A stretch of DNA of 64,000 nt from positions 2,772,501 to 2,836,500 of the forward strand of contig NZ_CP051206.1 in the NCBI RefSeq assembly GCF_012516395.1. Reading direction: 5' to 3'. The position numbers and the translations under genes were made by a program. Source of the DNA: Dolichospermum flos-aquae CCAP 1403/13F (GTDB lineage: Bacteria; Cyanobacteriota; Cyanobacteriia; Cyanobacteriales; Nostocaceae). Under the pieces are notes generated by a model. That model was not told where the DNA came from. It made no database searches and saw nothing but the letters and a program-made list of their open reading frames with translations. Shown here in pieces: positions 12,459-64,000 of the stretch (its first letter is position 1; the number at the start of each line of letters is the position of its first letter).

Positions 12459-13421
12459 ATGACAGAAAACATAGACCATGACCGCTTATTCAAAGAACTA
12501 ATATCAACTTTTTTCATAGAATTTATAGAATTATTCTTTCCTCAAGTTCTCGAATATATAGACACAGAATCAATTATATTCTTAGACAAGGAAATATTTA
12601 CTGATGTTACCGCAGGAGACAAATATGAAACCGACCTGATAGCCAAAGTTAAATTTTTAGGTCAACCTTCTTATTTTGTGATTCATATTGAAGCCGAATC
12701 AGGTGCAAGACCGAAATTTAATCAAAGAATGTTTCGTTATTTTGCCAGATTAGATGAAAAATTGGACTTACCAATATATCCCATAGTGATATTTTCCTAC
12801 GACTCACCCAAAACCGTAGCCGTAAATAACTATCAAATCAACTTTCCTGATTTTCAAGTGCTAAAATTTAATTATCAAGTAGTGCAACTGAATCAACTCA
12901 ACTGGCGAGACTTTTTAGCCCGTCCAAATCCAGTTGCATCGGCTTTGATGTCAAAAATGAGCATAGTGCCAGAAGATAGGCCAAAAGTCAAAGCAGAATG
13001 TTTAAGGTTATTGGTCACCTTAAAATTAAATCCAGCCAAAATGCAATTAATATCAGGTTTCATTGACACATATTTGAGATTGAATAAAATAGAAGAAGAG
13101 AAATTTCAAACAGAAATAGGCACATTAATTAAAGAAGAAAAGGAGGAAGTTATGCAAATTGTCACCAGTTGGATGGAAGAAGGAATTGAAAAGGGAATTG
13201 AAAAAGGTATTGAAAAAGGTATTGAAAGAGGAATTGAAAGAGGAATTGAAAGAGAAAAAAATTTAATTCTCCGTTTAATTAATAGGAAATTTGGACAAAT
13301 TGATCTAGAATTAGCAACGAAAATTAGAAATTTAAATATAGAAATCATTGAAGCTTTAGGAGAGGCAATATTTGATTTAGAGACTGAAAAAGACTTACAA
13401 AATTGGTTAGATAATCTTTGA
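12459..13421 (+). CDS. Rpn/DUF4351-type recombination-promoting nuclease family protein
   Basis: This is a PD-(D/E)XK-fold protein of the Rpn (transposase_31) superfamily. The start at 12459 is chosen because GGAAG lies 3 bases upstream, just after the SNF2 stop; earlier in-frame Met codons overlap the SNF2 gene. Key segments are DHDRLFKELISTFF near the N-terminus and the HIEAESGARPKFNQRMFRYF region with the catalytic Glu. A run of GIEKGIEKGIERGIER-type hexapeptides (about residues 235-257), encoded by an 18-bp-like DNA repeat at 13183-13254, precedes the C-terminal helix bundle; this repeat is common in the family. The gene is intact. It separates the SNF2 and SWIM genes and is likely co-transcribed with both. 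Confidence 0.88.
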   Translation: MTENIDHDRLFKELISTFFIEFIELFFPQVLEYIDTESIIFLDKEIFTDVTAGDKYETDLIAKVKFLGQPSYFVIHIEAESGARPKFNQRMFRYFARLDEKLDLPIYPIVIFSYDSPKTVAVNNYQINFPDFQVLKFNYQVVQLNQLNWRDFLARPNPVASALMSKMSIVPEDRPKVKAECLRLLVTLKLNPAKMQLISGFIDTYLRLNKIEEEKFQTEIGTLIKEEKEEVMQIVTSWMEEGIEKGIEKGIEKGIERGIERGIEREKNLILRLINRKFGQIDLELATKIRNLNIEIIEALGEAIFDLETEKDLQNWLDNL

Positions 13422-13424
13422 TAT

Positions 13425-14258
13425 ATGAATAATGAAACCTTACAAGCAAGTCGGGAATGGTGGTCACAAAGATGGCTAGATTTACTGGATTCTTACCGAT
13501 TTAAAAAGCGCTTAGAACGGGCAAGAAATTATTCTCGACAAGGAAATGTTCAGAGTATTAAATTTAAAGCTGCAAAAGTATTAGCTAGAGTCCAAGGTAG
13601 TGAAGCAGAACCTTATAAAGTTTCTTTATCTCTTGATGCTTTTAGTGAGGAAGAATGGGGTTATGTGGTGGAAACAATGTCTCAAAAGGCGATTTTTGCG
13701 GCTAAGTTATTAGCGGGGGAAATGCCACAAAATATTGAAGAAGTTTTTATCAGTAATGGTTTATCATTGTTTCCCTTTACTCTGACTGATGTTCACAGTA
13801 AATGTTCCTGTCCTGATAAAGCCGTTCCTTGTAAACATATAGGTGCAGTATATTATCAATTAGGCGATCGCTTTAGTGAAGATCCATTTGTATTATTTCA
13901 ATTACGTGGACGTACCAAAGAGCAAATTATCAGCGATTTACGTCAATTACGCAGCACTAAAAATGTAGAAACAATTCAGGAAATATCGGCAATTCAACCA
14001 GAAGTTTCTGAATATCAATATCCTGTTAAAATAGATGATTTTTGGCAATATAATCAGCCGTTAGAATCGTCTTTAGTAGTTATTTCACCTGCTGTTAGTG
14101 AAACAGTATTAGATGTATTAGGGACAATTCCCTTAGCGAAAGATGAGGAAAATACAACTAATTTACCTGCTAGTGAATTGGTGATGAAATATTTAAAAGC
14201 CATTTATCAAGATGTGAGTCAAAAGGCATTTCTAGCAGCGATGAATGTGGGACAATAA
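13425..14258 (+). CDS. SWIM zinc-finger protein
   Basis: The 277-residue protein has a SWIM finger at residues 127-138, Cys-x-Cys-x6-Cys-x-His (CSCPDKAVPCKH), a fold that binds zinc and is thought to contact DNA or protein. Bacterial SWIM proteins of this kind are nearly always paired with an SNF2 ATPase, as here at 9260, and probably act together with it. The gene begins 3 bases after the Rpn-type gene, so all three form one transcription unit. The rest of the protein has no recognisable domain. Confidence 0.9.
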   Translation: MNNETLQASREWWSQRWLDLLDSYRFKKRLERARNYSRQGNVQSIKFKAAKVLARVQGSEAEPYKVSLSLDAFSEEEWGYVVETMSQKAIFAAKLLAGEMPQNIEEVFISNGLSLFPFTLTDVHSKCSCPDKAVPCKHIGAVYYQLGDRFSEDPFVLFQLRGRTKEQIISDLRQLRSTKNVETIQEISAIQPEVSEYQYPVKIDDFWQYNQPLESSLVVISPAVSETVLDVLGTIPLAKDEENTTNLPASELVMKYLKAIYQDVSQKAFLAAMNVGQ

Positions 14259-14270
14259 GTTTTTCTTCTC

Positions 14271-14897
14271 TTACTTTTTACTCCTTACCCATTCCCTAAC
14301 AGCTTTTCTAATTGCCCTTCTACCATTTGCCCGATTTTGTTCAATTATTTGTGGTAAATCCCGAATTTCTAAACTAGGAAATACTAAACTTTTCTCAGAT
14401 TCCAGATATTCCCCAGCTTGCAAAAGGTAAATCTTCAATTCGCCAGAATCATAACACCAAATCTCAGGAATTCCCAAACGAGCATAAATAGAAAACCGAT
14501 TTAAAGATTTACTAGTAACATCAATTTCTAAAGCCAAATCAGGAGGTGGATCTTTTTGCAAATCTAAATCTAACCGACCCCTAACTAATGCTTCATTTTG
14601 AAAATAAAAACAATCATCAGCTTCAATTCCTGCCATTTTGCGTTCTTGCTTCCACGTGGTAGAACCCAAACTTTCATAGTCTAAATTCAACTCTTCGGCA
14701 ATATCTTCAACCGCAGTGCTGATAACTTTTTTATAATACTCGTGTTCTGGTAAAGGTGTCATAATTTCCAAATTTCCATCATCATAAGCCACTCTAGCCG
14801 CCCGATGTTCTCCCAAATCTTGCAACAGATTCTCAAATTGTTGCCAACCGATGTTATAAAGCATAACTCTATCAGCGCGATGTTTGGTGATGATCAT
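14271..14897 (-). CDS. Uma2-family putative endonuclease
   Basis: This is the second Uma2 protein of the window, with 208 residues and divergent from the copy at 5767. It shows DLQKDPPPDLALEIDVTSKS at about residues 112-131, giving the PD...E core, and the family ending with GIPEIWCYDSGELKIYLL. It is convergent with the SWIM gene, with 12 bases between stops. The C-terminus is basic (RANGRRAIRKAVREWVRSKK). No partner gene is present, and the role is unknown. Confidence 0.87.
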   Translation of the reverse strand: MIITKHRADRVMLYNIGWQQFENLLQDLGEHRAARVAYDDGNLEIMTPLPEHEYYKKVISTAVEDIAEELNLDYESLGSTTWKQERKMAGIEADDCFYFQNEALVRGRLDLDLQKDPPPDLALEIDVTSKSLNRFSIYARLGIPEIWCYDSGELKIYLLQAGEYLESEKSLVFPSLEIRDLPQIIEQNRANGRRAIRKAVREWVRSKK

Positions 14898-44738: not shown

Positions 44739-45059
44739 AAAACCCGCTAAAATTGGCAACTTGACAGCAGCAGCCAGTGTGGGAAAATCAGACAATTTGT
44801 AGACCATAGACAACCGTTACCAACTGGGAAGCGGCTAATTTGTCTTGTTTAACGACTTAATGGGGAAACTTTTGCCCATTTCCTCACCCACCAATCATCA
44901 ATTCCCAATCCCAACCATAAGTAGAAGTTGTCTTGTGGAGTCTCATGGTGAAAACCATCCAAGGATATACTAGACTCATGAATTGGCAAATGTATTGAAC
45001 TTCAATCGGTCATCATCTCAGCAGAGATTATTACTAAAGCTGAAGACAAAAGGTCAGTA

Positions 45060-45394
45060 ACCCAGCCCTAAGGGGACTGGGCTTGCAAGAGTAATCAAGC
45101 AAGCCGTGCTGACCAGACCACCCTGAGCGTAGTCGAAGGGTAGCCGTTATTTGAGTCATGACACCCCGGAATGCGAAGCTAGTTCCCTGCTCTGTCGCTT
45201 GTGATTAAACAGTTCCAAGGTCACTGGAACAGTGTTGCAAGCTCAAGCAAGCTCTTATAACAGGTCGAAGCTAACATTACCCCAGAAATGGGAGTTGGTT
45301 TCCAGGTTCCAATCAAAAATCTGGTTTTAATTTCAATATCCACAGCGGTTAAAACCGCTCGTGTCGCTTCCCTCTCAGCCCTAAAGGGACTGAG
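45060..45394. mobile_element. Possible PATE: non-autonomous IS200/IS605-type element
   Basis: Two similar hairpins bound this stretch: CCCAGCCCTAAGGGGACTGG (45061) and CTCAGCCCTAAAGGGACTGA (45374). IS200/IS605 elements have such sub-terminal hairpins at both ends. Between them, one plus-strand frame reads VMTPRNAKLVPCSVACD then stop, resembling a TnpB tail. There is no intact transposase. It fills most of the 850-base gap before ndhA; 44740-45060 shows nothing else I can name. Confidence 0.4.
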
Positions 45395-45485
45395 TCTCCC
45401 GCTTACCGCGTGATCTTATGAAAATTAGAATAACTGATTTCATCCTTCACAGTTCATCAGCACGTTGACTTAAAGAGCAGCAAAC

Positions 45486-55747: not shown

Positions 55748-55831
55748 TTAAAAACAATTTGATATACAAGAGTTTCAGCCTTCAGTCATTTATATCACTG
55801 AGGCTGAACATTTGTTTGAAGGCTTTCCTGA

Positions 55832-56323
55832 CTACATTACCCGCAAACCTAAAATTATCAAATCTCGTTCCACTCCGTCCAAATCAGCAATTTTCGGTAA
55901 ATTCCCCCAGGCTTGAAAACCGAACCAGGCAAATAATTTTAAACTGGGTTGATTATGAGCGAAAATAAAACTAACTAACGTCTTTAAACCTAAATTAGGA
56001 CTTTCTTGAATGGCTTTTTCTAAAAGTTGTTTTCCCAAACCACGTCCTTGAAAATCTGGGGAAATATAAATACTAATTTCCGCGGTAGAATAATAGGCTG
56101 GTCTACCGTAGAATGATTGGAAACTCAACCATCCAGCAATTACACCCTCTGTTTCCACTACCCATAGGGGACGTTGTGAGGGGACTCGTCCTTGAAACCA
56201 AGCTAAACGACTTTCCACAGACACAGGTTCTAAGTCAGCGGTAGCCATGCGACTAGGAACAGCAGCGTTGTAAATGGCGACAATGGCGGGTAAATCAGAT
56301 TCTAGGGCATGGCGGATCATCAT
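55832..56323 (-). CDS. GNAT N-acetyltransferase
   Basis: The 163-residue protein is close to the phosphinothricin/methionine-sulfoximine acetyltransferase group: MMIRHALESDLPAIVAIYNA at the N-terminus, EISIYISPDFQGRGLGKQLL with the acetyl-CoA loop at about 84-103, and FIFAHNQPSLKLFAWFGFQA. The natural substrate is probably an amino acid or analogue. It is convergent with tRNA-Met and lies 81 bases downstream of a methyltransferase on the same strand. Confidence 0.9.
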   Translation of the reverse strand: MMIRHALESDLPAIVAIYNAAVPSRMATADLEPVSVESRLAWFQGRVPSQRPLWVVETEGVIAGWLSFQSFYGRPAYYSTAEISIYISPDFQGRGLGKQLLEKAIQESPNLGLKTLVSFIFAHNQPSLKLFAWFGFQAWGNLPKIADLDGVERDLIILGLRVM

Positions 56324-62432: not shown

Positions 62433-63093
62433 GCTGCTTTGTTCTGAGAATACAAATATTGTTGAAACTCGATAAATACTTCGCTGATATTAGCAACGCT
62501 TCCTAATTGTGTCACAGCATCTCTAACAGTATGAATAACCCTTTTCTGATAAACCTGCTAATAGGGCTTTACGAGTATCTGGACGACTCCAAATAGTTCT
62601 TAATTCGGCTTCATTTTTGAATAATTCAGGAATTTCCCCAAAAAGACGTTCTATAAATTCTTCCGCGCTCATGGGTTTACCGTCTTGACTCCAAAAGCTC
62701 GTAGATATCTGATGTTGAATAGTTGGTTGATTTCTGTCATGAATAATTGCACCCGGTAGCGTTCCCGTTCCTGAATTTCAATAATGCGGTTAAAGTCGCT
62801 TTCAGTGTAGGTTTTTTCTGCATCTATTGCACCTTCGATGACATCATCATCAAGGCTGTAAGTATATTCATCTAGGGTAGTTTCGATTTGTCTGACTTTG
62901 AAGGGAGTTAAAAACCCGTCGTTAATGCCGTCTTTGAGGGCGTAGATATAAACTGGATCACCAAAATAAGCGTAGGTATCGGCGTTGTGTTCGCGCTTGG
63001 GGGTGGCTGTGAGTCCCAGTTGTACGGCGGGTGAGAAGTATTCTAATATGCCTCGCCAGGTGCTTTCGTCTTTTGCTCCTCCTCGATGGCATT
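62429..63093 (-). pseudogene. hsdR: Broken type I restriction HsdR (R subunit) gene, split by a transposon
   Basis: Read from 63093 down, the frame opens in the DEAD-type Walker B box (CHRGGAKDESTWRGILEYFS), then LGLTATPKR and NADTYAYFGDPVYIYALKDG and INDGFLTPFKV, all helicase motifs of EcoAI/EcoR124-like HsdR. After TEINQ the frame jumps (deletion and frameshift) to PMSAEEFIERLFGEIPELFK, a C-terminal part, and a second frameshift precedes VRDAVTQLGSVANISEVF and the end. The upstream half must lie beyond the transposon. It is non-functional. Confidence 0.85.
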
Positions 63094-63099
63094 TGTCGC

Positions 63100-63318
63100 T
63101 TGCCAGATTAAATGACCACCTGACAAATTAATGTCCACAAAAATATTAACCCCTAAACCCTTGCTATGTAAGGGTTTTGTTATTTTAGCCTATATTGAGC
63201 CTCTTCAACATCAATTGACAAAATAACTGTCCGAGTTTAAAAACTTGACAAATTAGTTGTCCCATATTAAAAATAATGCTTTTTCCAACCTTGACTTTAC
63301 TTGACAAATTAATTGTCC
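63100..63318 (+). promoter_or_regulatory. TnsB-type binding sites in the left end
   Basis: Five sites: 63100-63117 (TTGCCAGATTAAATGACC, the most diverged), 63121-63136 (TGACAAATTAATGTCC), 63215-63232 (TTGACAAAATAACTGTCC), 63245-63262 (TTGACAAATTAGTTGTCC) and 63301-63318 (TTGACAAATTAATTGTCC). All point the same way. The uneven spacing is typical of Tn7-type ends. Confidence 0.82.
63156..63188 (+). terminator. Terminator-like hairpin inside the transposon end
   Basis: AACCCTT/AAGGGTT with a 7-base loop, followed by TTGTTATTTT on the plus strand. It would block transcripts entering from the flank, for example from the thermonuclease gene. Confidence 0.6.
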
Positions 63319-63359
63319 TCCGATAGAGTATAATTCAACTATGTTTGTAATAAACATAT

Positions 63360-64000
63360 ATGCTAGAAATACAAAATGATAAACCCAATGAGGATGAAGT
63401 AGAAGATAGCGAGATTATCACTCAACTATCCGCAGGTGATAAAGAACTATTGGAACTAATCCAGAAATTACTCGAACCATGCGATACCTTCGGTAAGCTT
63501 CGCTAACGCATCACTTACGGAGAAAGACAAAGGGAGGTAGCAGCAAAACTGGGTAAATCAGTCCGAACAGTCCGCAGACTGGTTAAAAAATGGGAAGAAC
63601 AAGGTTTAGCCGGACTGCAAACCACTCAACGGGCTGACAAAGGTAAACACCGCATAGATTCTCAGTGGCAAAAATTCATCATCAATACCTATAAAGAAGG
63701 TAATAAGGGTGGCAAGCGAATTACTCCCCAACAGGTTGCCATTAGAGTACAGGCAAAAGCAGCAGAATCGGGTGATGAGAATTATCCCAGTTATAGAACC
63801 GTTTATCGAGTTCTACAACCGATTATTGAGGAACAAGAGCAAAAAGCGAGTGTTAGAAATCGTGGTTGGCGCGGTTCTCGATTATCACTAAAAACCCGTG
63901 ACGGACTAGATTTATCTGTAGAATACAGCAATCATATCTGGCAGTGTGACCATACTCGTGCTGATATTTTACTGGTGGATCAACATGGTGAACTTTTAGC
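63360..64000 (+). pseudogene. tnsB: TnsB-family transposase, N-terminal part, interrupted by a stop
   Basis: TnsB is the DDE transposase that cuts and joins transposon ends. The frame from ATG 63360 reads MLEIQNDKPNEDEVEDSEII and LLEPCD, then a 21-base insertion (63486-63506) adds a TAA at 63504. The same frame continues without further stops to the edge: ITYGERQREVAAKLGKSVRT, ADKGKHRI, TYKEGNKGGKRITPQQVAI, and CDHTRADILLVDQHGELL, where the first Asp of the DDE site lies. Removing the insert gives GCGATCGC and a clean frame. No in-frame ATG follows soon after the stop, so the copy is probably inactive unless read through. The C-terminus is outside the window. Confidence 0.82.

Follow-up and report, generated by a model that had tools for sequence, protein, structure and literature searches.

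Type V-K CRISPR-associated transposons (CASTs) are genome-engineering tools, and their cointegrates result from the absence of TnsA. In replicative transposons, the same chemistry acting intramolecularly deletes or inverts the DNA beside an exact terminus and leaves no duplication. ShCAST from Scytonema hofmannii has, like the element described here, a V-K TniQ, no TnsA, TGT ends with arrays of TnsB-type sites, and 37-nt repeats. The Cas12k (structure 7n3o) and TnsB (structures 7svw and 8ea3) of ShCAST align with those of our element over nearly the whole length, whereas our element has an interrupted tnsB, a coreless tnsC, no target-site duplication, and a type IIG restriction cargo. According to a 2024 review (PMC11406308), a TnsA-less transposase produces Shapiro intermediates that are replicated into cointegrates, and the handling of cointegrates by V-K CASTs in native hosts is unknown. 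The layout of V-K elements including AnCAST of Anabaena sp. PCC 7120, as given in PMC9938897, comprises a regulator gene divergent from cas12k, a tracrRNA after cas12k, a truncated repeat followed by an anchor spacer of 17 nt, a GTN PAM, a tRNA pointing at the left end, and a PAM-to-end distance of 46-82 nt. Our element has this layout in common with AnCAST, and its distance of 59 bp from PAM to tRNA-side terminus lies within that range. Unlike AnCAST, it is decayed, and the published CvkR operator consensus was not found near tnsB, near cas12k or near the start of the tracrRNA (≤ 2 mismatches).

The window, i.e., the whole stretch of 64,000 nucleotides analysed (C1:2772501-2836500; the genome measures 5.2 Mb and is split over two contigs), ends inside this element, and the adjoining 35 kb (L007; window position = L007 position + 59499) were also analysed. 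The element spans 10,732 bp, from the TGT at window position 63094 to TGACA at L007:14326. Judged from its sequence, which established gene content, ends, guide and attachment site, it belongs to the type V-K CAST lineage, in a Nostocales cyanobacterium. The element itself is an unremarkable representative of an already known type, and the pattern of its flanks is the interesting part. As a whole, the locus is very probably a decayed V-K CAST that was once guided to tRNA-Pro(CGG) and was later rearranged at its tnsB-side terminus.

Gene content and ends of the element

The features of the element, from the tnsB-side end to the CRISPR array, are as follows.

Window 63094..64000, + strand: part of the element inside the window, the start of the 10,732-bp element, with the rest in L007
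Window 63094..63318, + strand: tnsB-side end, TGT terminus and five TnsB-type sites (right end by convention)
Window 63360..64000 and on to L007:5591, + strand: tnsB of V-K type, broken, stop at 63504-63506
Window 63486..63506, + strand: 21-nt insertion (small dispersed repeat) with a stop codon inside, pattern match at 63488-63509
L007:5595-6005, + strand: tnsC remnant, 136-aa ORF
L007:6199-6741, + strand: tniQ
L007:6719-7399, - strand: 226-aa ORF
L007:7392-10574, - strand: type IIG restriction-methylation-like cargo, 1060 aa
L007:10817-10896, - strand: partial copy of the regulator gene
L007:10917-11351, - strand: MerR-type regulator gene
L007:11411-13339, + strand: cas12k
L007 about 13370-13632: predicted tracrRNA region, after cas12k
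L007:13727-13852: dispersed repeat of 126 bp, between the tracrRNA region and the array
L007:13926-14108: CRISPR array, three 37-nt repeats
L007:14242-14326: tRNA-side end with inverted TnsB-type sites (left end by convention), flanked by TCTAA

The best PADLOC profiles for tnsB (TnsB_0_V-K, 535.6 bits, 371-aa part scanned), the tnsC remnant (TnsC_0_V-K, 57.1 bits), tniQ (TniQ_0_V-K, 246.9 bits) and cas12k (Cas12k, 1044.5 bits) were those of type V-K, which supports the type V-K-like Tn7-family assignment made in the preliminary description. Since the TnsB, TnsC and TniQ profiles were best for V-K and cas12k is present, another Tn7-like or rve element was rejected. The order beside the right end, V-K type tnsB, tnsC remnant and tniQ, is that of V-K CASTs, and the best solved-structure matches were 7n3o for Cas12k (937 bits) and 8rdu/7svw for TnsB (805 bits). 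TnsA was not found among the seven larger ORFs, which were scanned by profile. The LLEPCD, ADKGKHRI, TYKEGNKG and QCDHTR segments, earlier assigned to a TnsB N-terminus, do lie in one frame from the ATG at 63360, and the tnsC (as a remnant), tniQ, cas12k, tracrRNA region and CRISPR array that had been predicted to the right all occur within the next 10 kb. No tracrRNA family was found by Rfam at gathering thresholds; Rfam CRISPR-DR15 was assigned to two of the three array repeats. The 126-bp dispersed repeat recurs in five further places at 93-98% identity.

The TGT terminus starts at 63094, immediately preceded by GCATT, as had been described, and the five TnsB-type sites are real: TTGCCAGATTAAATGACC, an imperfect one, at 63100, TGACAAATTAATGTCC at 63121, and TTGACAAAATAACTGTCC, TTGACAAATTAGTTGTCC and TTGACAAATTAATTGTCC at 63215, 63245 and 63301, respectively. 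An 18-base site pattern allowing up to 3 mismatches gave 5 matches in the window against 0.52 expected, a number reached in 0 of 100 shuffles. Three of these matches, two of them exact, fall in the tnsB-side end, and the remaining two (10694 and 32331) carry 3 mismatches each. The name "left end" given to this side has to be changed, as the field convention followed in PMC11406308 and PMC9938897 uses "right end" for the tnsB side and reserves "left end" for the side of the tRNA. A matching inverted end had been predicted as well; it was found next to tRNA-Pro(CGG), and 22 of 26 terminal bases are identical between the two ends.

The Cas12k groups with those of G286 and Cuspidothrix issatschenkoi (support 100/99), and its named relatives include Cuspidothrix, Richelia, Anabaena and Nostoc. 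The element of C. issatschenkoi CHARLIE-1 (L149) is the closest named relative (92% for both Cas12k and TniQ), and its tnsB, tnsC and tniQ each match in a single stretch, a statement about match extent only; it differs in lying near tRNA-Thr(CGT) and in its terminal sequences. The element of G286, from the same genus, shares the tRNA-Pro, the anchor and the lack of a duplication (Cas12k 96%), but has a tnsB fragment fused to tniQ, lacks any tnsC match within the locus, has lost its tracrRNA region, and carries other cargo. Remnants at the tRNA-Pro site are present in further genomes of the genus, among them G154, G292, G251 and G246. In Aphanizomenon flos-aquae FACHB-1287, the counterpart of the IIG restriction gene carried as cargo by our element lies just outside the tnsB-side end (L169:3-962, 91% over residues 1-320), and cas12k is split over two contigs at residue 429/430.

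Guide, attachment site and flanks

The sequences relating the element to its attachment site and to its neighbour on the tnsB side are the following.

L007:14137-14150: truncated repeat AGGTGGGTTGAAAG
L007:14151-14167: anchor spacer GCGCACTTCGTTCGGGA, 17 nt
L007:14334-14407, - strand: tRNA-Pro(CGG), with the protospacer at 14369-14385 and the PAM GTA at 14386-14388
Window 63089..63093: GCATT flank, end of the hsdR-type fragment, adjoining the tnsB-side terminus
Window 62672-63094, - strand: hsdR-type fragment, an open frame truncated at the DE/CH helicase motif

The anchor spacer is identical in 17 of 17 nt to the sequence of tRNA-Pro(CGG) just beyond the element end, next to the PAM GTA, and 8 of the 40 elements surveyed below have the identical anchor. 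A Cas12k-crRNA complex carrying this spacer would once have guided insertion to a point 59 bp downstream of the GTA PAM, beside tRNA-Pro(CGG), and plasmids were probably the targets of the array spacers. Spacer 2 agrees with plasmid pANA02 of Anabaena sp. 90 at 35 of 37 positions, with a GTT PAM in front; no further copy of the spacer was found in our genome (≤ 3 mismatches over 26 bases). Anabaena cylindrica PCC 7122 was rejected as the target of spacer 2 (5 mismatches, and GCT rather than GTN before the match). Spacer 1 gave no plasmid or phage match, spacer 3 no plasmid match, and a G286 spacer weak unrelated matches only. A lone tRNA-side CAST end, 95% identical to that of our element, lies beside tRNA-Arg(CCG) (L019:14845-14930; G000:C1:2339844-2339929), and no partner end was found in two 20-kb stretches around and left of it. 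A second CAST, inserted at a different tRNA, has left this lone end as its remnant.

The flanks, GCATT on the tnsB side and TCTAA on the tRNA side, do not form a 5-bp target-site duplication; the second GCATT that had been predicted is thus missing. This outcome had been named in advance as refuting, yet it is no argument against type V-K because 24 of the 40 surveyed V-K elements also lack a duplication; a duplication is the mark of a single insertion event and does not define the lineage. No other TGT pair within our element yields a direct repeat of the target-site type. Window 62730-63093 matches a locus (L077) of the relative G295 at 88%, and the match ends exactly at the element terminus. 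In G295, the hsdR-type gene extends beyond the point where our fragment stops (in two frames, running off the contig), and the interval from it to tRNA-Pro contains HsdM and Methylase_S (type I specificity) ORFs. Among the best 18 of 337 candidate matches between our genome and this 5.5-kb stretch of G295, there was one long match, the 364 bp left of the element, accompanied by one of 238 bp (69%) and by short repeats; hsdM and hsdS were missing from our genome in these 18. The ancestral gene order is uncertain, since other genes adjoin tRNA-Pro in G291 and G294, and the G295 order may not be the ancestral state.

For the unmatched flanks of our element, the preferred explanation is a rearrangement after insertion, located precisely at the tnsB-side terminus, with presumed loss of hsdM, hsdS and the 5′ portion of hsdR. 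The route may have been replicative intramolecular transposition by the TnsA-less transposase or recombination between two copies, both of which would give the same end state, and selection for the tRNA probably kept the guided side fixed. An alternative that concerns the origin of the flanks, and not the V-K identity, is that two CASTs inserted separately, one into hsdR and one beside tRNA-Pro, and were joined by homologous recombination into a hybrid with mismatched flanks. This predicts an identical structure, with exact termini, unmatched flanks and loss of the intervening DNA, and the lone end at tRNA-Arg also speaks for it; against it, no array spacer matched hsdR or the other loci examined, besides the arrays themselves (4 mismatches allowed), and a second tnsB or cas12k was not found in our genome. 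We consider two insertions a serious possibility, albeit the less probable origin of the flanks.

Elsewhere in the window, positions 55750-55832 mark a rearrangement point of the genus, as G291 and G294 have tRNA-Pro beside the sequences joined here, in opposite directions. A CAST-driven inversion at 55.8 kb, suggested by synteny, was dropped, as no further such CAST end was found in the window. About 380 bp at window 45046-45424 recur (93%) in the G286 element, in the region of its tnsB start, and represent a dispersed element.

Flanks of natural V-K elements

Within the order, 90 of 291 genomes gave a Cas12k match (E ≤ 0.001), and within the family, 90 of 217 (E ≤ 1e-150). Termini were sought in 30 selected relatives that had tnsB within reach, in our element and that of G286, at two named loci, and in 40 more regions. 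Left out were G161 (no ends), one element of G139 (candidate end 1404 bp from tnsB), one of G261 (contig end), an Aphanizomenon contig pair without a repeat (ends on different contigs), and 31 of the 40 regions (4 had no ends, and in 27 no tnsB start lay within reach). In the final sample, which consisted of V-K elements alone (40 with both termini, partly from related and thus non-independent genomes), a terminal direct repeat of at least 4 bp was present in 16, and none or one of at most 3 bp in 24. Ten of the repeats were 5 bp long; the others comprised one of 4 bp, two each of 6 and 8 bp, and one of 10 bp. Among 930 mismatched pairings, from a set including two rows dropped later, 7 reached 4 bp, 4 reached 5 bp and 1 reached 6 bp. 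The five repeats longer than 5 bp (6 bp in G105 and G024, 8 bp in G234 and G128, 10 bp in G035) belong to loci L099-L100, L111-L112, L117-L118, L123-L124 and L139-L140; TnsB-type duplications may vary in length. Misplaced termini were rejected as the cause of the unmatched flanks, since 23 of the 24 elements contain no alternative TGT pair with a direct repeat of at least 5 bp, and the sole alternative pair, in G286, was taken as chance (1909 bp from tnsB, 46 bp from cas12k).

An anchor match beyond the left end (≤ 3 mismatches) was found in 15 of the 16 elements with a repeat and in 19 of the 24 without, 25 of these 34 matches being free of mismatches. The distance from PAM to end was 51-65 bp, except for one of 122, and GTN stood at the offset used in 26 of 34, the other 8 having GT one base off. 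The guided side is as expected in most elements of both classes; therefore, the tnsB side is the odd one. Of the 24 elements that lack a duplication, 5 have a further CAST-type terminus motif no more than 30 bp from the tnsB-side end; none of the 16 with a duplication does. Copies therefore do pile up at such sites, a point in favour of the two separate insertions considered above.

The survey pattern agrees with rearrangement on one side by a transposase lacking TnsA, or with recombination of copies. After guided insertion beside a tRNA, the tnsB-side terminus would join new DNA and the intervening DNA would be deleted, here a type I restriction system. That natural V-K CASTs, without TnsA and resolvase, routinely rearrange their hosts, and that the missing duplications are the footprint of the cointegrate chemistry reported for ShCAST in E. 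coli, is a tentative proposal to which we give slightly less than even weight. Titles and the starts of abstracts contained no report of missing duplications in natural V-K elements, within a scope that did not extend to bioRxiv preprints and many subscription papers. Insertion sequences without duplications are noted in a paper on large rearrangements (PMC11708052). The flanks of natural V-K elements can be read as a record of past cointegrate fate, and our element is a case in which a relative, G295, allows the lost stretch to be named. If the tnsB-side junctions are rearranged, V-K elements remove or reorder DNA in their vicinity, a matter relevant to safety and to cyanobacterial genome evolution; the flank statistics merit a controlled study.

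G103 showed two equal-score Cas12k matches (G103:C1:3559754-3561466 and 4970299-4972011), a single tnsC match, which is a fragment with two stops, and a single, weak tnsB match.

Decay of tnsB and tnsC and retention of cas12k

An in-frame TAA at 63504-63506, missed in the preliminary description, forms codon 49 of tnsB and lies within the inserted 21-nt repeat. Comparison with G201 places this insertion at a GAT/CGC site, and comparison with relatives revealed a second in-frame insertion of 21 nt in the catalytic region of tnsB. The tnsC remnant retains about 58 N-terminal and 27 C-terminal residues and lacks the ATPase core; its 136-aa ORF matched profile positions 3-62 of 283, and the C-terminal piece was detected by tblastn. 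An active element was thus rejected: the suggestion of a large CAST was right as to the presence of a V-K element and wrong as to an intact system. Because of these two lesions, which are established from the nucleotide sequence, the element is unlikely to move by itself any more. Read-through of the tnsB stop or a restart of translation (371-aa ORF) is conceivable, although the tnsC core would still be missing.

Open frames are kept in cas12k, tniQ and the regulator gene. Since both termini, the TnsB-type sites, tniQ, cas12k, the tracrRNA region and the anchor guide are all kept in sequence, the element could be non-autonomous yet mobile, moved in trans by TnsB and TnsC of another CAST. We regard this as unlikely, given the 7-residue insertion in Cas12k and the failure, already mentioned, to find a second tnsB or cas12k in our genome. 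Retention of a stand-alone module of Cas12k, tracrRNA and crRNAs, controlled by the MerR-type regulator and serving as a DNA-binding repressor or occupant of the attachment site without transposition, appears more improbable still. In its favour, our element and that of G286 both combine open cas12k and regulator genes with a broken tnsB and tnsC, through different lesions in the two. Between them, dN/dS is low (0.17 in cas12k, 0.20 in the regulator gene), and our element keeps its tracrRNA region and the plasmid-matching spacer. However, the ratio was also 0.20 for part of tniQ and 0.12 for tnsB against G201, so that these ratios may reflect shared history; the tracrRNA region is lost in G286, and cas12k occurs as fragments only in the same-genus drafts G240, G246 and G251 and at the tRNA-Pro of G154. 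Decay of a once guided V-K CAST remains the preferred reading of the locus; the low ratios of cas12k and the regulator gene, the undetected CvkR operator, and the lack of matches for spacer 1 in plasmids and phages and for spacer 3 in plasmids are points against it.

The 7-residue insertion in Cas12k corresponds to one in-frame insertion of 21 nt, of the same small dispersed repeat as in tnsB. A literature search of titles and abstracts on small dispersed repeats in cyanobacteria yielded no usable paper. The copies in the element lie at GAT/CGC sites (window 63486-63509, L007:4770-4796 and L007:13007-13036), and the repeat pattern occurs in 64 copies genome-wide, several of them tightly clustered, against 0 for the reversed pattern used as a control.
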